Assembly: GCF_004323735.1 (NCBI RefSeq)
Contig: NZ_CP036456.1
Coordinates: 1-64,000, forward strand
Reading direction: 5' to 3'
Source of the DNA: Streptomonospora litoralis
GTDB taxonomy: Bacteria > Actinomycetota > Actinomycetes > Streptosporangiales > Streptosporangiaceae
Length of the DNA: 64,000 nucleotides
Each line of letters starts with the position of its first letter. Position 1 is the stretch's first letter. Made by a program: the position numbers and the translations under genes. The notes beneath the pieces were generated by a model, which saw only the letters and a list, made by a program, of their open reading frames with translations, was not told where the DNA came from and ran no database searches. Shown here piece by piece: positions 24,428-39,284 of the stretch.

Positions 24428-25096
24428 TCAGTCTTTCCAGTGCGGGATGTGGGCGACGTCTGGGCTCCACGGCTGCCGCAGCGCGGAGGCGTTGGCGCCG
24501 ACGAACCGGTAGGCGTGGCGAGAAGCGGCCGAACTGCGGCCCGGCACCAGGCTGGGGGAGTGGCGGTGATCCACCAACGACGGCCACGGATACCACACCG
24601 TGATGCCCTGGCGCTGGAGCCACTGGCCCATGCGGGAGTCGTAGTTCGCGGTCTCGGGATGCTCGTCGCCCCACGCCACCAGGTCGGGGATCAGCCCGGT
24701 CGGCATGACCACGCCCACGCCCCAGTAGATCGAGGGCATCGCCAGCCAGGACACGCGCCGGCTGCCGACATGGCGGCGCACCGCCGCCCGGAACCGCTTC
24801 ACCCGGCCGGTGTAGAGGCACAGCGGCGTCGGCGCGCCCGGCTCAGCGGGTACGTGCCGCAGCGCCCGCTCCACTCCGGCGACCAGATCCCGGCACACCA
24901 CCGCATCGTCCTGGACGACCAGGTGGTGCGTGGCGGTGGGGGAGTAGGCGAGCATGGCCCGCCGGCCCGTATCCCACCGGTCGCCCCACCGGTCCCAGAC
25001 CACGTTGGAGGGCCGGTCGAGGCGATCCACCAGCTCAGGGATGAACCGGCTGCGGTCGGGATGCGCCATGATCGCCACCGACACCCGCGGCTTCAC
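24428..25096 (-). CDS. Glycosyltransferase-like protein
   Basis: A 222-aa protein from GTG 25096, with GGAGG upstream and a 4-bp overlap with the FkbM gene. Features: VSVAIMAHPDR start typical of GT-A enzymes, HLVVQDDAVV as a DxD-like metal motif near residue 65, and a hydrophobic middle (WLAMPSIYWGVGVVMP). The family is a predicted small GT-A transferase; donor and acceptor are unknown. Confidence 0.6.
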   Translation of the reverse strand: MKPRVSVAIMAHPDRSRFIPELVDRLDRPSNVVWDRWGDRWDTGRRAMLAYSPTATHHLVVQDDAVVCRDLVAGVERALRHVPAEPGAPTPLCLYTGRVKRFRAAVRRHVGSRRVSWLAMPSIYWGVGVVMPTGLIPDLVAWGDEHPETANYDSRMGQWLQRQGITVWYPWPSLVDHRHSPSLVPGRSSAASRHAYRFVGANASALRQPWSPDVAHIPHWKD

Positions 25097-25800
25097 CGGG
25101 CGCCTCCTGCCGTGTAGTCCCACCGTCCCACCGGAGTCCGGGAGCCCTTGCCCGAGAAGCGCCGCGTCAAGGCGTAGCCCAGCGGGTGCAGGACGCTCGC
25201 GATCGCTTCGTGCTCGGGCCGGCCCCACTCTTCGGCGAAGACCACCGGACGGTGCCGGCGGATCGTGGCCCGTGCCCCCGCCAGCATCATCGCCTCCATC
25301 CCCTCGATGTCGGCCTTGATCACGTCCACGTCCGGCAGTTGGTAGCTGTCCAGGGTGCGCACGGGCAGGTTCGCACCAGAGCCGATCCACTGCCCGGCGG
25401 CCACGTCGGGCTCGGCGCTGGGTTCGGCCGAGGCGTCGGGGTCCAGGCGGCCCTTGCCGACATGGGTCGCGGTGCTGGTGTGGTCGCCCAGCGCCACCGT
25501 TTCGATCCGCACCCGTTTCTGGGCGCGGTTCATCCGGACGTGCTCGGCCAGCAGCTCATGGTGCAGCGGCTCGAACGCGACCACGTCCAACCCGCACACC
25601 TGGGAAAACCAGAGCGTGTGGTTGCCGATGTTGGCGCCGGCGTCCACCGCCACACCGGTGAAGCGCTGCTGATAGATGTGCTCCAGCAGCGGACGCTCGT
25701 AGGGCACACCGCGCCGCATGCAGCGCGAGATCTTGCCGCCGGTGTCGCGCATGCGCACCCGCGCCCCGTGCGCGGTGATCTGCAGTACTGGTCGGGTCAT
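25093..25800 (-). CDS. FkbM-family O-methyltransferase
   Basis: A 235-aa protein from ATG 25800. SAM motif VDAGANIGNHTLWFS (about residue 50), VVAFEPLHHEL, and DVIKADIEGMEAMML mark the FkbM family, which methylates hydroxyls of sugars and other small groups. It overlaps both neighbours by 4 bp. In this setting it probably methylates the glycan built by the adjacent glycosyltransferases. Confidence 0.85.
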   Translation of the reverse strand: MTRPVLQITAHGARVRMRDTGGKISRCMRRGVPYERPLLEHIYQQRFTGVAVDAGANIGNHTLWFSQVCGLDVVAFEPLHHELLAEHVRMNRAQKRVRIETVALGDHTSTATHVGKGRLDPDASAEPSAEPDVAAGQWIGSGANLPVRTLDSYQLPDVDVIKADIEGMEAMMLAGARATIRRHRPVVFAEEWGRPEHEAIASVLHPLGYALTRRFSGKGSRTPVGRWDYTAGGAR

Positions 25801-26348
25801 GATGCGTTGTGCCTCTGTTCCAGCGCGTCGGCGGCGGCGAGGCGGTCGCCGGAGAGCTCGGCGAGGTCCCACAACCGGGACAGGCCCGGCTCGGGGGCGG
25901 CGATGCCCATGTGCACCACACGCGTCTTGTCGGCGAGGAACGCCTCGATGTTGGCGGTGACCGTGCGGACGTAGGCCCGGGCGGCCGCCAGCCGCTCGGC
26001 GTCGGTGCGCGGCGACCGCGCGCGGATGATGCCGGACGCATACGCCGGGGCGATGCCGGCGCGCACCCCGTAGCGCCGGGCGTAGGAGGCGGCCACCTGC
26101 TCGGGGTCCCGGGTCAGGTGGACATAGGTGGGCTCGTCGCCGAAGCGTTTACCGAGTTCGCCCAGGAACCAGGAGAGCCGGTTGTCGACCTCCACATGGC
26201 CCTCGGGGTAGTCCAGCCGGCCGGGGCCGATCAGGTGGGCGCGGGACTCGTGCCCCACCGTGTGGCTGAGGACGTGCGCCTGCAAGGCGCGAGCGAGCGT
26301 CACCGACCCGCACCGGCCGGTGCACAACACGAACACGCGCCTCACCAT
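25797..26348 (-). CDS. PAPS-dependent sulfotransferase-like protein
   Basis: A 183-aa protein from ATG 26348. The N-terminal loop VLCTGRCGSVTLARAL is the 5'-phosphosulfate-binding P-loop variant of sulfotransferases, and HLTRDPEQVAASYARR carries the 3'-phosphate-binding Arg and Ser. It is shorter than typical bacterial sulfotransferases (about 250-300 aa), so it may be a minimal form. With the neighbouring GT and FkbM genes it suggests a sulfated, methylated glycan. Confidence 0.7.
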   Translation of the reverse strand: MVRRVFVLCTGRCGSVTLARALQAHVLSHTVGHESRAHLIGPGRLDYPEGHVEVDNRLSWFLGELGKRFGDEPTYVHLTRDPEQVAASYARRYGVRAGIAPAYASGIIRARSPRTDAERLAAARAYVRTVTANIEAFLADKTRVVHMGIAAPEPGLSRLWDLAELSGDRLAAADALEQRHNAS

Positions 26349-28954: not shown

Positions 28955-31900
28955 TTAGAGTCCGATGACGGGGCTGCGGTCGAGGCTCAGGCCGGTGCCC
29001 GCCGGGTGGTCTTTGCTGACGGTGTTGATGGAGCGCTGCACCGTCATCGACTGGGGGGTGACGACCTCCGCCAGCTGGAACCGGAACGAGGGGTTGGTGC
29101 CGGTGAACGCCGGGTCGCACACGGCCGAGAACCCGAGCTGGCCGGCGTCGATACGGCCCGCCGAGGAGGGGATGGTGCGGTCGATCATCCAGTGGTGCGG
29201 CTCCATGTGGCCTAGATCGAGGCCGGCGCCGAGGTCGGTCTCACCGGACGGGTAGCGCTGGTGCCACACGCGGGCGAGGACGCGGTGCCCGATGATGCGG
29301 GTCCGCACCCAGATCCGGGAGTCCACGCCGGCGTTGGCGTCGTAGGCCAGGGGCGGGGCGGTGACGTGGCCCGAGTCGATCTGTGTTTCGCCGCGCGCCA
29401 CGCTGAGGTTGACGGCGCCCAGGTGGGAGAAGTGCACGCGCAACTGGTAGAAGTCGTCGGCGCCGGTGTGGCGCAGCACCAGCCCGCCGATTTGCGGCCC
29501 CCCGGGGCTGATCTGGTTGACGCGGATGCTCCACAGCACCTCGCAGTCGCCGACCGCCACCCCGGGGTCGAGCAGCTGGGTGCGCAGCGTCGTCAGCCCG
29601 GCGTTGAGCTGGATGTAGCCGTAGTGGTCGACGGCGTCGACACCGAGGTTGGTGTCCGGCACCGCCGTTTCGGCCCAGGGCGTACCGGACTCGCTGGTGC
29701 CCCAGGTGTTGGCGCCGCGGCTGTTCCGGAAAAGGTCCCACGCCGCGGGTTGGGCGTGGGTGACCCGCATGACCTCCCCGCCCGCGCGCACGTCGAAGGG
29801 GAACTCGGTGGCGTGGGTGGCGGTGGCGCCGTCGGCGTTGATCCACCGCGACCCGCCGTACTCGTCCTGCACCGTGGCGACCCACACCTGGGTGTCTTCG
29901 GCGCCGATGGCCTCCACCAGGGCGGAGCCTGAGGTGTCGGCCCGGTTGGGCCGGTTCGGGCCCGCCTCGGTGCCGTCGGAGAGCACGGCCTCGTCGAGCC
30001 AGAGCAGGTCGGTATCGGCCGGGGTGGGGCGCTGGTTGATGTTGACGCGCAGCCGCCACGCGCCTTCGGGGGCGACGCTGGACCCCTGCAGGTAGGTCCA
30101 CTCCTCCACCGGAGTCGGGGTGGCGAGCAGGATGAACGGGAACCCGAGGTAGGTGCCGTCGACGTCGAACCACTCGATGCTCATGTCCACGTCGTGGCCG
30201 GTGGTCGAATACGCCCAGACGCCGAAGTGGTACTCGGTGCCGGCGTGCACCCGCGGGGAGTTCTCCCACCGGGTGCGGACACGCGCCACCTCCGAGGTGC
30301 CGTCGGGCACCTGCACCAGCGACCCCGACCCGCGGTAGGCCCGCACCCGCGAGTGGTAGATCGTGGACCCGGTGGACTCCCACCCGTAGGCGTAGACCTC
30401 GAAGGAGTGCTCGGAGTTGAGCACCAGCTCCCCGGAGGTTTCAGCGACCTCGCTGATCGCCGCGGGGGAGGCGTTGTACTCCAGGTGCCACTCGTGGGTG
30501 GTGATGGTCTCGTCGTAACCCTCCACGGCCGCGGTGATCGCCTCGGGCGGCAACCACGGCGGCGGGTTGGTGATGTGGATCTGGTCGCCGGCGTCCACCC
30601 CCGCCAACGCGTCGCGCAGGTCGACCATGCGGCGGTTGGTGAGGTTGGAGTGCAGCTGCGGATACCGCGCCTGGTCCACGGTGCCCTTGTGGACCCGCCA
30701 CCCCGCCTGGTCGGCCAGCTGGTCGTCGGAGTAGACGTTGACGGTGACCGAGTCGGAGTAGCGCCCCACCCCGGCGGGGGGTTCGGCTGTGCCCAGCGGC
30801 CCGGTGGTCTGCTCCACCCGGTGTTCGCCGCCGTCGCTGCGTTCGGCGGTGACGTCGTTGGACAGCTGCTGGTCGTCATCGACCGGCGACAGCGGCTCGA
30901 ACGTCTGCCCCGCGGCGTAGTCCAGGGCGACGACGTGGGGTGCGACGTGGGCGTAGCCGGTGTAGGTGCGCCACACGGTGTCGCCGATGTAGCCGGTGGC
31001 GTGCAGCGCGATGGTGTGGCCCGAGTCCACGATGCGCAGGGTGCCGTACCGGTCGCGGCCGGTGGACTGGCCCTGGTCGTACTGGCCCTCCGGCAGCGCG
31101 GCGTGGGCCGCGTCCAACGACCCCAGCATGAACAGCGGAAATCCGCCCCACGGGTTGTTCGGACCGCTGGAGATGGACAGGGCGTGCTTGTCGGCCTGCA
31201 GCATCACCATCCGCTCCAGCCACCCGGTGTCGCCCAGCAGCTCCACCAGCTCCTGGCGGTCACGCCGGAACATGCGGAAGGAGTCGCGGGAGTAGTCGGC
31301 GCCGGAGTAGGCGATGCCGGCGTCGCGGGTGTGGCCCTGGTCGGACAGCCACAGCGACGGCATCACCAGCACCAGCGCCTTGGCGGAGGAGTTCCGCAGC
31401 ACCTGCTCCATCCAGATCTTCTGCGGCACCCCCAGCATCGTTTTCGGCGAGCCGGGGTCGGTGTCGAGCACGCTGTTGGGGTCGCGGGCCCACCGCACAT
31501 CGCACGCGAGGAACTGGACTCGGCCGATCTGCCACGCCTGGGCGATCGGCGCGTTCGTCGCTGACGCCCCGCCCACGGCCAGGGGGTAGTGCGGCACGAT
31601 CTCGCGGTATACCTCGGCCGCGGCCTGCCGCCCGAGGTGTGTGGAATCGGAGTTGTTGGGGCCGTAGTCGTGGTCGTCCCACACATAGGCCATGCCCACG
31701 TCGCGGAAGAAGCGGCCTTGGCGCGCCTGCGCGCCGAGGGTGCCGTTGTAGGTCAGCAGGTCGGCGAACGCGTCCCGGTACAGGGCGTGGTCGTTGACGG
31801 CGATGTTGCGGTAGTGGGCGTCGCCCAGGTGCACGAACTGCACCCACTCCTCGGCCAGCGCCCGGTCCCGCATGGTGTCGAACACCGGGTGGTTGGAGAC

Positions 31901-32257
31901 GCCGTCGACGATGTGGGAGTCGTCGCCGTTGCCGGTCAGGCCGGCGTCTCCGGCCGCCCCCACGACGAACGACGCCGGTTCCCCCACCAGGGGGTGGGTG
32001 CGGAACGTCCCCGAGAACGCGGTGTCGAGGACACTGTCGTCCTCCACGGCGTAGTAGTAACGCGTATCGGTCGCCAACCCGGTGGCCTCGATCGAGACCA
32101 CCCCCTCGGCGGTGGGCGCCACCGGCCCGAAGAACAGCGGGCTGGCCAAGCCCGGATCGGTCGAGACGGCCAGCCGCGTGCTGGACCCGGTGACCTTGCC
32201 CCGCACCCAGATACTCGTGTCGGTGCCGGCCCCGGCCCACACCCACTCCACACTCAC
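28955..32257 (-). CDS. PhoD-like phosphatase/phosphodiesterase fused to tail protein
   Basis: An 1100-aa protein. Residues 1-90: Fn3-like PhoD N-domain. Residues about 95-440: PhoD metallophosphatase with Asp104 (GDAGLTGN), HLGDAHY (143-149), VWDDHDYGPNN (192-202), DVRW and QADKH (354-358). From Leu445 (LDYAAGQTFEPL) the sequence changes to a tail-hub segment (WRVHKGTVDQARYPQLHSNL, VDAGDQIHIT, WLPPEAITAAVEGYDETI), then a carbohydrate-binding-like module and a concanavalin/LamG-like end. GTG start overlaps the previous stop. PhoD enzymes hydrolyse wall teichoic acid; here it is probably a virion depolymerase. Confidence 0.8.
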   Translation of the reverse strand: MSVEWVWAGAGTDTSIWVRGKVTGSSTRLAVSTDPGLASPLFFGPVAPTAEGVVSIEATGLATDTRYYYAVEDDSVLDTAFSGTFRTHPLVGEPASFVVGAAGDAGLTGNGDDSHIVDGVSNHPVFDTMRDRALAEEWVQFVHLGDAHYRNIAVNDHALYRDAFADLLTYNGTLGAQARQGRFFRDVGMAYVWDDHDYGPNNSDSTHLGRQAAAEVYREIVPHYPLAVGGASATNAPIAQAWQIGRVQFLACDVRWARDPNSVLDTDPGSPKTMLGVPQKIWMEQVLRNSSAKALVLVMPSLWLSDQGHTRDAGIAYSGADYSRDSFRMFRRDRQELVELLGDTGWLERMVMLQADKHALSISSGPNNPWGGFPLFMLGSLDAAHAALPEGQYDQGQSTGRDRYGTLRIVDSGHTIALHATGYIGDTVWRTYTGYAHVAPHVVALDYAAGQTFEPLSPVDDDQQLSNDVTAERSDGGEHRVEQTTGPLGTAEPPAGVGRYSDSVTVNVYSDDQLADQAGWRVHKGTVDQARYPQLHSNLTNRRMVDLRDALAGVDAGDQIHITNPPPWLPPEAITAAVEGYDETITTHEWHLEYNASPAAISEVAETSGELVLNSEHSFEVYAYGWESTGSTIYHSRVRAYRGSGSLVQVPDGTSEVARVRTRWENSPRVHAGTEYHFGVWAYSTTGHDVDMSIEWFDVDGTYLGFPFILLATPTPVEEWTYLQGSSVAPEGAWRLRVNINQRPTPADTDLLWLDEAVLSDGTEAGPNRPNRADTSGSALVEAIGAEDTQVWVATVQDEYGGSRWINADGATATHATEFPFDVRAGGEVMRVTHAQPAAWDLFRNSRGANTWGTSESGTPWAETAVPDTNLGVDAVDHYGYIQLNAGLTTLRTQLLDPGVAVGDCEVLWSIRVNQISPGGPQIGGLVLRHTGADDFYQLRVHFSHLGAVNLSVARGETQIDSGHVTAPPLAYDANAGVDSRIWVRTRIIGHRVLARVWHQRYPSGETDLGAGLDLGHMEPHHWMIDRTIPSSAGRIDAGQLGFSAVCDPAFTGTNPSFRFQLAEVVTPQSMTVQRSINTVSKDHPAGTGLSLDRSPVIGL

Positions 32258-34254
32258 TGACGTCCTCCTTGGTTGTAGCGGGACCGGGTGGTCCGATAAA
32301 TCAGCGCGATGTCGGACCGCGACTCGTAGAGCACCCCGTCGTCGACCTGCTCTGCCTCGCGCATCACCGCCAGGGGCGCCTCGGTGCGCTGGGGCCCCAT
32401 CGGCGGGGTCAGCTCCAAATCACCCACCGCCTCGAACGCCAGGCCCTGCTCGGCGGCGACGCGGGCGATACGCACCCCCGCCGGTTCGCCGGTGTGCCCA
32501 TACATCGCCTGCGTGACCTCTTGGGCCGAGGGCGGGGCGGGCACCGCCTGCTCGTCCCACACGGTGATGTGGCCGATGGAGGCGTGCGCGCCCTCCGGCG
32601 CGGCCGGTTCCCGCAGGTTCCACCAGTACTGGGCCGAACCGGGCGGCTCCGGCGCCGCAAACCCCGACGTGGTGCCGTCCAGCAGCAGCTCCCCGTCGAC
32701 CCACAGGCCCCAGTCGGATTCGCCTGCCCCGTTGTCGGCGACACGCAGCCGCACGTGCCGCAGCTGGTCGGTGAAGAACCGGGCGTCGTCGGAGACACCG
32801 AGGTGGGTGAACCCGGGCACGGCGGCGTCCTCGGGCACCAGCCGCACCCACACCCGCATGTCGGGCGCCTCCTGGTCGAACCGGACCCGCCACTCCTGGC
32901 GGGTGCCGGCGCCGTCGGGCCGGGTCATGACGACGAGGCGGTCCTGCCCGCCGACGCCGGCGCGCACCATGTCCACCGACCAGTCGGTGGAGGCGTCCTG
33001 GGAGGACACCCGCCCGGAGATGCGGCCCAGGTCCCGGTGGGTGCGGGCGACCGGTTCCAGCCAGGCGGCGAGGCTGCCTTCGCGCCAGTCGAGGCGGGCC
33101 TGGGTGCCCATCTGCCCTGGGGGCGCGTCGACGACCACCGCCATGTCGTAGGGGCCGGCGTCCGGGCTCGCCACGAGAGCGGTGGCGCCGTCGGTCAGCG
33201 GCCAGTACGCCACCGGGGAGCGGGCGTTGATGAATCGCCGCAGGGCGGACTGTTCGGGGGCGGTGCCCTGGCCGAGCCGCCGCAACACCCCGGAGGCTTT
33301 CAGCGGCACCCACACGTCGTTGTCGGAAACGTCCCAGGAGACGGGCCATTCGGCGACTTCGCCGGTGAACCGCGGGATGGTGGTCCCGTCGACGACGATG
33401 GACACCCTGATGGGGGTGTTGCGGCCGATCAGCCCGAAATAGGGAGAGCCAGGGTTGCGGGGGGAGAACCGGCCGCCGCGGTTGTTGATCGTCAGGGAGC
33501 ACGAGGACGCGTCGGCGGTGTCGGTCTCATCGGCGCGGCCGCGGCTGATCTCCACCGGTTCGGTGTCGCGCACATCCGCGCTGATATCGACCCAGCCGCC
33601 GTCGATGACCAGCTCGGTGCGGATCGTCAGGGGGAACGTCGGCGGCGGGGCGGGTGCCGGTGTCGGCTTCAGCAGCACCGCGATGGTCGACATGAGCCCG
33701 ACCGTGCCGGCGGTGACGGTGTAGCCGGTGGTGGGGCCCTCGCGGGTGATCTGGCGGGTGCCGGTGATCCACCCGCGGTCCATGTGCTCCACCACCTCCA
33801 ATCCCGCCGGGGAGAACGCCTTGGTGGTGTCGTCCCAGTGGAATCCGCCGACCACGAGGAGGTCGCCGCGCTGGGCGGGCAGGGACGGCACGTCGAGCTG
33901 GGCGGCGTCCTGGTCGCCGGTGACCGCGGTGGCGTGGGTGCGGATGGCCGCGACGCCGCGCAGCGCGATGATGTGCAGGAAATGCCAGTGGTCCCCGGCC
34001 CAGGTCACGGTGACCTGGTCGGGGTCGTCGGCCTGGTCCTGGCGGGTGAAAAGCCAGGTGTAGGCTTGGGCGCCCTCGTTGATCAGCTCCTCGTTGACCA
34101 CCGCCCACCCGGTCGGGAACTGAACGATTTCGACTTCGTCGTTGGCGCTGGCGAACATCAGCAGCCGGTCGCCGGCCTGGGTGGCGGGCGGCACATCGGC
34201 GGTCACTTCGGCGACGAAGCCGCCGGCGACGGTGGAGCCGATGATCTCGATCAT
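32254..34254 (-). CDS. Tail hub/baseplate protein, truncated at SRYNQ
   Basis: A 666-aa protein from ATG 34254. The N-terminal 200 residues are a beta-rich domain; residues about 205-340 match the phage hub start (VDISADVRDTEPVEISRGR, NRGGRFSPRNPGSPYFGLIGRNTPIRV). A LamG-like middle follows and it ends DIALIYRTTRSRYNQGGRQ. In related actinophage tail proteins that YNQ segment continues directly into a LDYAAG... stretch, which here is found in the middle of the next gene. So this gene appears to be the N-terminal half of a split protein. Confidence 0.75.
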   Translation of the reverse strand: MIEIIGSTVAGGFVAEVTADVPPATQAGDRLLMFASANDEVEIVQFPTGWAVVNEELINEGAQAYTWLFTRQDQADDPDQVTVTWAGDHWHFLHIIALRGVAAIRTHATAVTGDQDAAQLDVPSLPAQRGDLLVVGGFHWDDTTKAFSPAGLEVVEHMDRGWITGTRQITREGPTTGYTVTAGTVGLMSTIAVLLKPTPAPAPPPTFPLTIRTELVIDGGWVDISADVRDTEPVEISRGRADETDTADASSCSLTINNRGGRFSPRNPGSPYFGLIGRNTPIRVSIVVDGTTIPRFTGEVAEWPVSWDVSDNDVWVPLKASGVLRRLGQGTAPEQSALRRFINARSPVAYWPLTDGATALVASPDAGPYDMAVVVDAPPGQMGTQARLDWREGSLAAWLEPVARTHRDLGRISGRVSSQDASTDWSVDMVRAGVGGQDRLVVMTRPDGAGTRQEWRVRFDQEAPDMRVWVRLVPEDAAVPGFTHLGVSDDARFFTDQLRHVRLRVADNGAGESDWGLWVDGELLLDGTTSGFAAPEPPGSAQYWWNLREPAAPEGAHASIGHITVWDEQAVPAPPSAQEVTQAMYGHTGEPAGVRIARVAAEQGLAFEAVGDLELTPPMGPQRTEAPLAVMREAEQVDDGVLYESRSDIALIYRTTRSRYNQGGRQ

Positions 34255-37200
34255 GCGTTGGCCCCCTTGCCGAATGCGATCTGAACGTTGCCGCCGCCCT
34301 CGATGCGGGTGATCTTGCGGATGCGGCGCCGCAGTTCGGCGTCGCCGCCTTCGAGGTCGATGACGATGCGGATGGGTTCGGCGCCGACGGGTTCGGGGGC
34401 GCCGGTGCCGTTGTAGGCCAGCGAGTACCCGACGGGGAGGTAGCCGCCCGTGTCGTAGGTCGCCGAGGGCAGGATCTGGCGCAGCGCCGCAATGTGGTCG
34501 GCCGGCTGCCCCTCCCAGCCTTTGTCCTGCATCACGAAGTCGGCCGGGTCGATGAGTCCGCCCATGGCGTAGCCCGGCCAGTCGGGCCGGAAGATCGCCC
34601 CGCCGGAGCGGGTGGAGCGGCGGACGTTGTTGCCTTCGTTGCCGCCGATCCGGTACCGCTCGGGGTCGTTAACGGTGTTAACGTGCGACGTGCCGTAGAC
34701 GGCGACGTCGCCGGGTTTCTTCTGCGACTCGGAGACGCGCCGCATCCCGGAGGTGTAGTAGTCACCGGTCCAGGCGGTACGCGAGGCGCCCTTCAGCGCG
34801 CTGCTGTTCTTGGTCTTGTCGAACAGCCAGCTCACGTACATCGCGCACCACGGCGACCCTGCCATGCCGTACCAGTCCGTGATGGCGTTGCGGTTCGACC
34901 CGGGCGGGTTCTCGGGGAAGCGGCCCACGGTGCGCTGCGCCAGCTCGACGACGGCCTTGGCGCCCTTGCCGATCTCCAGGTCCTCGCGGTGCGCCTTGAT
35001 CTGCGCGCTGATGGCCCGGTTCCAGTGGCGGACGTCGTGGAAGCCCTGCCCGTGCAGGTCGTTGCCGGTGCCGTACCGGTTCGCGGTCGCGGCGGCCATC
35101 CCGTTCAGCGCACGGTTTCCGGCGGCGACCACACCGCCCCGGTTGTCCCAGGAGTCCTTGCCCAGCTCCCGGAACCGGTTGGCGAGCCCGACGACACCAC
35201 CGCTCGCGAATCCTTCCAGCAGGAGTTTCCCGGCGTCGCCGCCCAGCCGGTTCGCGGAGTCGATGAACGACCGGCCGCCGAGGCTGGTGGTGGCCTGCGG
35301 GGTGAGGACCCCTTCGCCGTCGCGCACGGCGGCGAGCCGGTTGTCCTTGGAGGAGTACCCGGCCAACTTCCCGCCGCCGGTCAGGTCGACCATGCCGCCC
35401 TGGTCGAAGCCGGGCACCTTGCCCATCGTGGACAGGCCCGGCACCTTGCGGGCGATGGTGTTCCACACGCCCCGCAACCCTTTGTTCACGACCGGGTCGA
35501 TGACGTACCGGACCGGGGCGGCGGCGGCCTGGCGCAGCCGCCCCCAGGACGCGTGGACCCCCACCACGGTCGCCCGGAAATTCTGCAGGACGCCCTTGCG
35601 CATGTGGGTCGTCGCATCCAGCAGCATCGACACCAGCGACCGCGACCCCGACTGCAGCGCCCGCACCATCGCGAAGAAGCTCTTGGTCGAGTCGGCGGCC
35701 ATGTCGTCGAACGCGCCTGTGAACCCGCGCGCGAGCACGGCCGCCAGCCGCAGGCTCTGGGTGACCAGCTGCCCGATCGAGCCCAGGATGGTGGCGGCCA
35801 GCGCCCGGACGAGCGCGGTCGAGCCCTTGCGCAGCGCCACCAGCGTCAGCAGCACCGAGGACCGCAGCACCGCGACCTGGGTGGTCATCGCCGCGGCCAT
35901 CAGCCGGGTCTGCTCGATGGCCTTCGTGTTCATCCCGGTGACCTGGTCACCCACCCCGGAGGGCAGCTTCTTGGTCTCCCCGATGATCTCGGAGACCATG
36001 TCCGGGATGATCGAGTTGCCGACCAGCTCGTCGTAGAGGCCGCGCGCCTTATCCAGCGCCTTGTCCTTCATCTCGCCGAACTTCTCGCCGACGACGGTGA
36101 CCATCTCCGTCAGCTGGCCGATGACGACCTGGACGATGGCGATGAACATGGTCCGGACGATGTTGAGCAGCTGTCGGCCCGCCTCCACCGCGGACTGAGC
36201 CAGCGCCCCCATGGCCTTGCCGTAGGCGCGGAGCAGAGCCAGCCCGACCTGGGCGACCATGCCGGGCACGGCCTTGGCCAGCTCGAACAGGACGGTGCCC
36301 AGCGCGCCGATGAGCCGCGGCCCCCAGTCCTCCTCGACGTGGGTGGCCAGCTTGCCTGGGGCGTCCTCCTCCTTGAGGCCCTTCACCGTTTTGTCGGGAA
36401 CGCCGGTAGCCCAGTCGACGAACTTCTTGGTGAGCTTGGTCAGCTTCTCCGGCAATCCCTCGGCGAAGCCCTCGATCCAGGCCACGAATTTGTCGGTCCA
36501 GGACTGCAGCCGTATGGGCAGGGTGTCGGCGAAGCCCTGGATCCAGGTGGTGATCTTGCGGGTCCAGGAGTCGAGCTTGGCGGGCAGGTCGGCGGCGAAG
36601 TCCTCGACCCAGTAGGTGAGCTTCCACCCCCAGGAGTCGAACTTGGCCTTCGTCTTCTCCCAGAGGCCGCCGGCCCAGTCGCCCAGCTTCTGCGTCCACG
36701 ACGCCAGCCGGCCCGGCATTTTCGCGGCCTCGTCGACGAACCAGCCCCCCAGGGACCGGCCGACCCCGGACAGCTTCGTGCGCACCGTCTCCGACAGGCC
36801 GCCCGCCCAGTCGGTGAACGCGACCGTCCACGTGGGCAGGTTGTCCTTGATGTCGGATGGGACGCCGCGGATCCAGCCGATGAGGTCGTCGCGCAGCTCG
36901 CCGAGCTTGGTGTGCCACTGGTCGAGCAGGTCGCCGTACCACTCCAGGAACGCGGGGATCCACTCGGTGGCCAGCGCGTCGGCGATCTCGGGGGCGGCGT
37001 CGGCCAACCAGCTCGACACCGAGCCCGGCAGTTGCCAGAACCACAGCTTCAGGGCCTGCCAGATGAGCTTGCCCGCCGTGGAGAACAACGCGACGAGGTA
37101 GTCCGCGCCGCCCTTGGCGGCCTCCTTTGCGCCGTCCCAGGCTTTGGACCAGTCGCCCTCGATGAGGCCGGTGACCAGGTCGATCGCGCCGCGCAACTGG

Positions 37201-39284
37201 CGGATGATGGCGCCGCCCCAGTCGGCGGCGAAGTCCTTGGCGAGTTCGATCTTGTCGGCGGCCTGCTCCCACACCCACGACCAGCGGCCCTCGAACGCTT
37301 CGGCGCCCTTGCGCAGCTCGTTCAGCCACCCGACGATCCGCTCGATGTGGGGTTCGGTGGCGTCGCGCAGTTCGCGCCACCCGTCCACCAGGACGGGCCA
37401 CAGGTCCGAGCGGAACCAGTCGGCGACGGCCCCCGCGGCGTCGCCGACCTTCTCCCAGACCCCGGTGACGATCTCCCGGAAAGTTTCGGAGCGTTTCCAG
37501 GCGAGGGCGAGGGCGGCGGCCAAAGCGGCCAGCGCGCCGATGATCAGCCCGATGGGGGAGAGCACCACCCCCAGGGCGGCGGTGACCCCGGCGATGATCG
37601 CCTTGCCCGCCAGTAGCGCCGCGACTACGACGGTGATGGCGCCGGCGAGCATCCCCACCACTTCCAGCACCGGTTTGATGGCGGCCTCGTGCTCCTCAAG
37701 GAACCCGGTGACGCCGCGCACGGCGCCGGAGAACATGTCGACCAAAGCGGTGGCGCCATCCAGGACACCCATGTCGCCGATCGCGAGGAACAGGCCCTCC
37801 ATGGCGGAGGTGGCGCCTTTCAGAGCCCCCTGCAGCCCGGACATCTTGATGTCGGCCATCCGCTTGGCCGCACCCTCGGAATCGCGCAGCTTGCCGGTGA
37901 AGCTGTCGAGTTCGTCGCCGCCCTGGCGCAGCAGCGCGATCATCGCCGGCCCGGACTCGACCCCGAACAGGTTCATCATGTCGGCGGTGCCGGCGCCGGC
38001 CGCCTCCAGGTCGCGCATGATGTCGGCCATCGGCCGCAGGTCACCGTTGGCCTTGGTGACCGTGACCCCGAGCGCGTCCAGCGTTTCCTGCACTTTGGCG
38101 GTGGGGCGGATGAGGTAGGACAGGGCGCCCCGCAGCGCGGTGCCCGCGTTCTCGCCCTTGATGCCGGCGTTGGCGAAGGTTCCCATCACGGCCGCGGTTT
38201 CCTCCAACGACATTCCCGCGCTGGAGGCGATGGGGCCGACGTATTTGAACCCGTAGCCCAGCTCCTCGACGTTGGTGTTCGCGTTGCTCGCGGTGGAGGC
38301 CAGCACGTCGTTGAGGCGGCCGAGCTGGGACACCTCCAGTCCCATCCCGGAGAGGATGTTGGTGGAGATGTCGGCGGCGCGCGCCAGCTCCATCCCGCTC
38401 GCGGCGGCCAGATCGAGGGTGCCGGGCAGCGCCTCCATCGACTCGTGCGCCGACAAACCGGCCTGCGAAAGGAACCCGAGGGCGTTGGCGGCCTCGGTCG
38501 CCGAGAACATCGTCGTCGACCCCAGCTCGCGGGCCAGGTCCGACATGGCCTGGAACTCCTGCCCCGTCGCCCCCGAGATCGCCTTCACGTTGTTCATGGC
38601 GGCTTCGAAGTCCTTCGAGGCGGTCAACACGCTGGCGCCCATGGCGGCGGCCGCGGTTCCGGCGAGCATCGGCAGCCCGCCGAACGCCCCGGCGAGCCCG
38701 GCCAGCCCCATCGTCATGCCGCCGGTGAACGACGCGCCGCCGGCGCGGCCCAGCCCGCCCAGCGGGGCGGTGGCCTGCTGGGTGCCGCTGCCCAACCCTT
38801 GGCCGATGCCGGCGGCCGCCAACTCCCCGCTGTTGATGAACCGGCCGCGGGAGTCGCGGATGCGGCCGTCGGCGCCCCGCACCCACCCGCGCGCAGCCAG
38901 GTCGCCGCCCCGGCTGAACGCCTGGGAGGTGTCGCCCATGGCCTGCGCGGCGGTCGTGCGCATTGTCTGGGCGACGCCGGAGGACACCGCCTCGTCCATG
39001 CCGGACACGAATGAGGACCCGGTGGCGGTGCCGGCCTTGATGAACCGGCCCTTGGAGTCGCGGATCCGCCGGGCTGAGCGCTCGGTGGTCTGCTCGACGC
39101 CGCGGGTGGTCTCCTTCTCGAACGCGGCGGTGAACCCGCCGCCCGAGGACCGTCCGGCGCGGGTCGCGGACTGCTCCACCTGGTGCAGCGTCCTGCGGGT
39201 CTGGCGGGTCAGCCGACGCATGTCGCGGTCGAACGCCTTGACGTCGGCATCCAGCACGACCGTCAGCTCTTCGAGCGTCGACAC
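34251..39284 (-). CDS. Tail tape measure protein with CHAP-like lysin domain
   Basis: A 1677-aa protein from GTG/ATG at 39284. N-terminal coiled region; TP901-type tape-measure core (about 205-415, NNVKAISGATGQEFQ ... RGALSYLIRPT); membrane-like helices near 530-580; Trp repeats about 828-961 in which a W-x2-3-W and LP-x-KL pattern recurs; long helices; and a CHAP-like domain with Cys about 1480 (SPWCAMY) and His about 1534 (GTSHVNTV). It sets tail length (a 1677-aa ruler implies a tail of roughly 250 nm at 1.5 angstrom per residue) and may locally open the cell wall during DNA entry. Confidence 0.9.
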   Translation of the reverse strand: MSTLEELTVVLDADVKAFDRDMRRLTRQTRRTLHQVEQSATRAGRSSGGGFTAAFEKETTRGVEQTTERSARRIRDSKGRFIKAGTATGSSFVSGMDEAVSSGVAQTMRTTAAQAMGDTSQAFSRGGDLAARGWVRGADGRIRDSRGRFINSGELAAAGIGQGLGSGTQQATAPLGGLGRAGGASFTGGMTMGLAGLAGAFGGLPMLAGTAAAAMGASVLTASKDFEAAMNNVKAISGATGQEFQAMSDLARELGSTTMFSATEAANALGFLSQAGLSAHESMEALPGTLDLAAASGMELARAADISTNILSGMGLEVSQLGRLNDVLASTASNANTNVEELGYGFKYVGPIASSAGMSLEETAAVMGTFANAGIKGENAGTALRGALSYLIRPTAKVQETLDALGVTVTKANGDLRPMADIMRDLEAAGAGTADMMNLFGVESGPAMIALLRQGGDELDSFTGKLRDSEGAAKRMADIKMSGLQGALKGATSAMEGLFLAIGDMGVLDGATALVDMFSGAVRGVTGFLEEHEAAIKPVLEVVGMLAGAITVVVAALLAGKAIIAGVTAALGVVLSPIGLIIGALAALAAALALAWKRSETFREIVTGVWEKVGDAAGAVADWFRSDLWPVLVDGWRELRDATEPHIERIVGWLNELRKGAEAFEGRWSWVWEQAADKIELAKDFAADWGGAIIRQLRGAIDLVTGLIEGDWSKAWDGAKEAAKGGADYLVALFSTAGKLIWQALKLWFWQLPGSVSSWLADAAPEIADALATEWIPAFLEWYGDLLDQWHTKLGELRDDLIGWIRGVPSDIKDNLPTWTVAFTDWAGGLSETVRTKLSGVGRSLGGWFVDEAAKMPGRLASWTQKLGDWAGGLWEKTKAKFDSWGWKLTYWVEDFAADLPAKLDSWTRKITTWIQGFADTLPIRLQSWTDKFVAWIEGFAEGLPEKLTKLTKKFVDWATGVPDKTVKGLKEEDAPGKLATHVEEDWGPRLIGALGTVLFELAKAVPGMVAQVGLALLRAYGKAMGALAQSAVEAGRQLLNIVRTMFIAIVQVVIGQLTEMVTVVGEKFGEMKDKALDKARGLYDELVGNSIIPDMVSEIIGETKKLPSGVGDQVTGMNTKAIEQTRLMAAAMTTQVAVLRSSVLLTLVALRKGSTALVRALAATILGSIGQLVTQSLRLAAVLARGFTGAFDDMAADSTKSFFAMVRALQSGSRSLVSMLLDATTHMRKGVLQNFRATVVGVHASWGRLRQAAAAPVRYVIDPVVNKGLRGVWNTIARKVPGLSTMGKVPGFDQGGMVDLTGGGKLAGYSSKDNRLAAVRDGEGVLTPQATTSLGGRSFIDSANRLGGDAGKLLLEGFASGGVVGLANRFRELGKDSWDNRGGVVAAGNRALNGMAAATANRYGTGNDLHGQGFHDVRHWNRAISAQIKAHREDLEIGKGAKAVVELAQRTVGRFPENPPGSNRNAITDWYGMAGSPWCAMYVSWLFDKTKNSSALKGASRTAWTGDYYTSGMRRVSESQKKPGDVAVYGTSHVNTVNDPERYRIGGNEGNNVRRSTRSGGAIFRPDWPGYAMGGLIDPADFVMQDKGWEGQPADHIAALRQILPSATYDTGGYLPVGYSLAYNGTGAPEPVGAEPIRIVIDLEGGDAELRRRIRKITRIEGGGNVQIAFGKGANA

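Follow-up and report, generated by a model that had tools for sequence, protein, structure and literature searches.

Long-tailed phages and related injection machines have few parts as conserved as the tail hub, and hubs of the gp27/gp44 type, such as T4 gp27, Mu gp44 and the 43 kDa protein of MuSo2, are single-chain proteins. The hub considered here is encoded by two genes. They lie on the minus strand of what we call the window, a stretch of 64,000 nucleotides (nt) from Streptomonospora litoralis (positions 1 to 64,000 of the forward strand of contig NZ_CP036456.1, assembly GCF_004323735.1). The first gene (P0002) codes for the N-terminal half of the hub (N-half), while the product of the second (P0001) starts with a PhoD-type metallophosphodiesterase and continues as the C-terminal half (C-half). 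The split of the hub gene is exact, recurs in relatives, all of them viruses that infect soil bacteria, and is associated with cargo, and the motifs of the inserted enzyme are conserved.

The same two genes, with the same split point and 4-nt overlap, are present in the Thermobifida phage P1312 as open reading frames (ORFs) 21 and 22, with a PhoD part 75% identical to that of the window (KT021004; PMC4569894). P1312 forms plaques (PMC4569894) and has a long, flexible, non-contractile tail (PMC6893835). Its authors noted that the N-terminal part of phage phiSASD1 gp38 is similar to ORF21 and the C-terminal part to ORF22. For ORF22, which has a predicted signal peptide, they proposed secretion with DNA degradation in the first place and hydrolysis of teichoic acid as an alternative function (PMC4569894). 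The resemblance of both genes to gp38 and the teichoic acid idea are therefore already published for P1312; the paper's account of ORF22 takes the protein as secreted and does not state a split-hub reading (PMC4569894). Phosphodiesterases of the tail module, predicted to act on wall teichoic acid as we propose here, were described for enterococcal phages and for the baseplate of Lactobacillus phage Ld17, but these belong to the GDPD family, not to PhoD, and their description mentions no hub split (PMC10194240). A gene cut in two by an insert, with products that apparently form a heterodimer as proposed here, is the cox2 of Campsomeris wasps; unlike the phage hub gene, it is mitochondrial and its insert is a separate cluster of ORFs (PMC5374615). 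In our literature search, which was limited in depth, we met no report of a hub split in this way.

The hub N-half ends with SRYNQGGRQ, followed by the stop codon, and the PhoD protein reads ...HVVA-LDYAAGQTFEPLSPVDDDQ, where L is residue 445. The two genes overlap by GTGA, which suggests their translational coupling. An earlier note on this DNA had described the two reading frames of 666 and 1100 amino acids (aa), their strand, the overlap and these termini, and all of them are present in the sequence. The overlap by itself does not demonstrate that the halves are made in equal amounts, as the note had concluded from it. The note had also stated that in actinophage tail proteins YNQ continues directly into LDYAAG, and proposed to align the concatenated halves to such homologues. 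We searched the PHROG_5313 profile (1052 positions) with the halves kept separate: residues 292-662 of the P0002 product matched positions 437-791, and residues 440-850 of the P0001 product matched positions 792-1030. The YNQ end (residue 662) and residue 440 of the PhoD protein thus fall on the adjoining positions 791 and 792, which makes the junction exact and the stated continuity correct. In tblastn against prophages and the Streptomyces phages Yara, Dubu, Dryad and phiSASD1, the hub N-half as a rule ceases to match at about residue 662. Matching by the PhoD protein sets in near residue 443 in most cases, sometimes some residues earlier through BLAST extension. The unsplit PHROG_5313 hubs Yara gp22, Dryad gp26, Dubu gp16 and phiSASD1 gp38 align with both halves and have YNQ and LDYA adjoining, but each is encoded by one gene and lacks PhoD.

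Both halves are therefore homologous to unsplit PHROG_5313 hubs, and they follow directly after the tape measure gene, which lies immediately upstream of the hub N-half gene. Where they depart from such hubs is in the number of chains per subunit: the window and 26 further intact sequences have two genes with starts of their own.

The support for the hub fold comes solely from an unsplit relative of 700 aa (L081). The AlphaFold2 model of L081 had a predicted local distance difference test score (pLDDT) of 88.4, and the junction corresponds in it to a coil, preceded by a short helix (430-432) and followed by a strand (439-442). The best Foldseek matches of this model were hubs of contractile systems and phages, including MuSo2, T4 gp27 and Mu gp44 (the latter at rank 24, with a TM-score of 0.65 by target), so the name of tail hub given to the protein in the earlier note is supported by the fold. 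The gp27/gp44-type hubs have the same fold as L081 at sequence identities in the 10% range and, unlike the hub of the window, carry no PhoD. Foldseek also returned sialidases and other lectin-like proteins, which a lectin-like domain within the hub would explain.

Relatives were collected with single proteins and a hub C-half profile as queries; the targets were genomes of the window's order, a sample of its class, two other orders, GTDB contigs, IMG/VR, phages and plasmids. The genome samples came from the window's class (345 and 342 of its order, 391 and 35 of two other orders and 394 across the class), and from the phage collection 5 of the 33 records matching the hub N-half entered the counts (L005-L009). 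A scan of viral contigs with the PhoD protein alone gave no match. The resulting set consisted of 146 distinct hub C-half sequences, and both halves were located in 140.

The two halves are in one ORF in 112 of the 146 sequences, 99 of which match the C-half profile at E < 1e-30. YNQ and LDYA are separated by 9-84 nt in all 112 (by exactly 9 nt in 68), so unsplit relatives do join the two segments, as had been predicted. The hub is split with PhoD in 24 sequences, where the halves are 1262-1340 nt apart, and with other cargo in three (1561-1635 nt). One hub (L056 of genome G222) is frameshifted without an insert. For the remaining six the N-half was not located; by eye, one of them (L088) is a single unbroken divergent hub. 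Among the 140 distinct sequences with both halves located, we found neither an intact split without cargo nor PhoD within an unsplit hub of the PHROG_5313 family. The PhoD-split sequences include those of P1312, Nocardiopsis lucentensis contig 908 and the Streptomyces plasmid pFP3; four of the 24 are near-identical (P1312 and three IMG/VR contigs: L005, L189, L190 and L191), and one (L012/L193, N. lucentensis) is cut by the contig end after the hub C-half. On two further contigs (L206 and L212) the hub N-half and PhoD are present, but the contig stops short of the hub C-half; both were excluded from the 24.

The three splits with other cargo come from prophages of Nocardiopsis salina (L044), Nocardiopsis sp. 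FIRDI 009 (L045) and N. lucentensis contig 796 (L104). Their hubs are divided at the same point, where the sequence reads YNR. Between the halves there is a 118-aa gene resembling a Gp80 fibre protein (PF23140, E 5.6e-10 and 1.1e-11), and the C-half has an N-terminal extension with PG_binding_1 (E 4e-12 and 1.5e-8), as seen in the two loci scanned, L044 and L045. N. lucentensis (G105; L042, L104 and L095) has all three states of the hub: split with PhoD on contig 908, split with other cargo on contig 796 and unsplit on contig 408. Hence the point acts as a cargo site. PhoD had been taken for the cause of the split, and it does sit exactly at the division of a single hub; however, a split without PhoD, which the earlier note had named as a refutation, is present in 3 of the 27 intact splits. 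As these carry other cargo, the split goes with the cargo site rather than with PhoD itself.

The history of the split was followed in trees of each half. In the first trees (112 sequences), 12 of the 13 split sequences formed one supported group of the C-half tree, the bootstrap of which was not settled, with G062 located elsewhere; in the N-half tree all 13 fell into a supported group of 23 rows together with 10 unsplit rows. In trees of 127 sequences, the label "split" required two changes per tree, against about 25 with shuffled labels. Four split sequences (L198, L013, L203 and L204) lay outside the main split group of the larger C-half tree, a group which is not strongly supported (89/89), and in the N-half tree eight unsplit hubs (Yara and Dryad among them) nested inside the split group. 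As far as such trees can tell, this fits one or two fissions combined with recombination, or some rejoining. Pairwise identities were correlated between the hub halves (r = 0.89; 78 pairs, 13 split loci) and between PhoD and each of the halves (r = 0.93 and 0.88; 45 pairs, 10 loci), a pattern which can be explained by shared ancestry alone.

The PhoD family profile (PF09423) matched the P0001 product with an E-value of 1.8e-8 and 34.3 bits, above the cut-off of 27. A sequence search of solved structures with this protein gave best E-values of 0.13 and 0.14. The motifs GDxxY, DDHD and [AG]DxH are kept in all 24 PhoD-split sequences and GDAG in 23 of them (G062 has TCAG); presumably, the motif residues bind metal. 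A chromosomal PhoD of the window's genome has GD, GDxxY, DDHE and ADxH in common with the phage enzyme. PhoD was also located in proteins other than this hub (L205, L207, L215, L218 and L219). In three IMG/VR contigs it is fused to another tail protein: it stands in front of a PHROG_1885 minor tail part in L205 (6001-8373), and in front of a DUF5047/PHROG_1887 tail protein in L207 (4176-6632) and L215 (5674-9048); in L215 a PHROG_5313-like stretch breaks up the PhoD domain. These fusions are a different route to a PhoD-bearing tail.

We consider it probable (roughly 0.65) that insertional fission has produced a two-chain hub, the C-half of which bears exchangeable cargo directed at the cell wall. 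A single-chain siphovirus hub of the gp27/gp44 type (PHROG_5313) would have been split at the YNQ-LDYA loop, with the downstream half acquiring its own start, a ribosome-binding site and an N-terminal cargo, here PhoD. The products of the two closely coupled genes should then reassemble into one hub, which, by analogy with trimeric hubs, would place three copies of PhoD at the tail tip. There the enzyme would cleave wall polymers linked by phosphodiester bonds, glycerol-phosphate teichoic acids for example, at adsorption or entry; the added enzyme, or in a few relatives the wall-binding part, probably helps the tail through the bacterial wall. A stronger form of this proposal is possible but rather more tentative: that the two-chain hub is obligate, and that fission at one loop has created a general dock for cargo on the N-terminus of the C-half, without the need for closely spaced termini, where PhoD is exchanged with wall-binding or fibre cargo. 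In this form some lineages may have rejoined the gene, as the eight unsplit hubs nested within the split group would indicate.

Several observations weigh against the two-chain virion hub. Most of the other Foldseek hub matches had low TM-scores and, across several domains, root-mean-square deviations of more than 20. The PhoD protein of the window gave a structure model (pLDDT 44.7) that was too poor for a two-chain assembly or a fold comparison. The published mass-spectrometry table of P1312, in which 24 of 93 proteins were detected, holds no coverage entry for ORF21 or ORF22; in the same table reverse-strand ORFs such as 6, 10 and 14 are marked as found, and other predicted tail proteins (13, 15, 16 and 18) also have no entry (PMC4569894). 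The PhoD relative of phage Jay2Jay lies outside a structural module, that of Phinky inside one. The mass-spectrometry result and the location in Jay2Jay, together with the signal peptide and the DNA degradation against superinfection suggested for P1312 (PMC4569894), would suit an enzyme acting outside the virion: secreted, wall-anchored or auxiliary, with a role in superinfection exclusion, the degradation of DNA or the supply of phosphorus. In other viruses, genes for PhoD-like proteins and glycerophosphodiesterases have been classed as auxiliary metabolic genes. Yet such a role appears unlikely to us, because all 24 PhoD-split sequences have the enzyme joined to the hub C-half and encoded immediately behind the hub N-half, and PhoD is joined to other tail proteins in L205, L207 and L215. 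Besides, the P1312 record has one match to each hub half and the genome of the window one match to the C-half; neither thus showed a second, intact hub of this family. A more serious alternative, although still a doubtful one, accepts the split hub and its PhoD but gives the enzyme another substrate: a nucleic acid, a phospholipid, a phosphomonoester or another polymer of the wall or capsule. The metallophosphatase superfamily acts on many substrates (PMC4569894), and the Asp of GDAG, present in 23 of the 24 sequences and also in a host PhoD of the same genome, corresponds to Cys in Jay2Jay, YongM, L205 and L207. On the other hand, PhoD of B. subtilis is described as an endo-acting teichoicase (PMC7086022), and the peptidoglycan-binding domain at the same point in three relatives suggests a wall target.

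That the halves are joined by programmed frameshifting or stop read-through into one chain with PhoD in a loop is improbable. The second gene starts in the frame of the first in 4 of the 24 PhoD-split sequences, a few bases past the stop, which speaks for it. However, 14 others have it in frame -1 and six in frame +1 with respect to the hub N-half; a conserved programmed frameshift is unlikely with a frame relation so variable. In all 24 a start codon (the first one, as chosen by script) is available -4 to +10 nt from the stop of the hub N-half, and in the window it is preceded by a ribosome-binding-site-like AAGGAGG. The frames also qualify the statement of the earlier note that PhoD was acquired in frame: this holds for the 3' side, where PhoD is in frame with the hub C-half, but the hub N-half is in another frame. 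Finally, the broken hub of a dying prophage is represented by L056, the sole broken hub and one without cargo. For the family as a whole decay is very unlikely and receives next to no weight, as there are 27 distinct split sequences (some of them mutually related) with both halves open, a plaque-forming phage is among them and the metal-site motifs are conserved.

If the hub is indeed two-chain, its ability to function when cut inside the chain would reveal at which point the fold can be broken, and by what means a large enzyme can be added to a tail tip other than by insertion into a loop in frame. P1312 could serve to test whether phages breach actinobacterial walls by cutting teichoic-acid-like polymers. 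We also suggest that PHROG_24476, annotated as "phosphodiesterase" in the category other, be re-read as a tail-hub half with an enzyme fused to it. The features of the split locus are listed in the table.

Table. Parts of the two hub genes in the window (residue numbers refer to the respective protein)
Feature	Coordinates	Strand	Remarks
Hub N-half gene (P0002)	32254..34254	-	ATG start, 666 aa; residues 211-662 (32269-33624) align with unsplit hubs, ending at YNQ
N-terminal module of hub N-half, residues 1-210	33625..34254	-	Unmatched in Streptomyces phage hubs; weak match to phrog_553 (minor tail family), E 4.9e-5
Short new tail GGRQ and TGA stop after the YNQ end	32254..32268	-	TGA overlaps the next GTG start (32255-32257)
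AAGGAGG, ribosome-binding-site-like	32264..32270	-	Within the hub N-half gene, 6 nt ahead of the GTG that starts the PhoD gene; read from the sequence
PhoD-hub C-half gene (P0001)	28955..32257	-	GTG start, 1100 aa
Inserted PhoD-type metallophosphodiesterase, residues 1-443	30929..32257	-	Pfam match at residues 137-362 (31172-31849)
PhoD motifs in P0001			GDAG 103-106, GDAHY 145-149, DDHD 194-197, ADKH 355-358
Hub C-half, residues 444-610	30428..30928	-	Starts with ALDYAAG, which follows directly on YNQ in unsplit hubs
CBM_4_9-like segment, residues 615-745	30023..30415	-	22.3 bits, below the curated cut-off of 25.9
C-terminal part, residues 757-1100	28958..29989	-	Conserved end of the hub family and an extra stretch missing from the shorter relatives L044 and L045

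The window's hub carries accessory stretches missing from some relatives: the N-terminal module (33625-34254), and the CBM_4_9-like segment with the long C-terminal stretch (28958-30415, minus strand). The tape measure protein (34251-39284, minus strand) has a CHAP-like stretch near its end (residues 1473-1540; 21.1 bits, below the curated cut-off of 26). The phage genes of the window are located on a contig of 89,998 bases, separate from the 5.7-Mb contig; blastn of 5 kb from each end revealed no terminal overlap of the smaller contig. Downstream of the tail genes, 24428-25390 and 25093-25872 (both on the minus strand) match PHROG glucosyltransferase (E 6e-34) and methyltransferase (E 1e-18) families, respectively. 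P1312 has an O-methyltransferase and a glycerophosphate transferase at a like place.

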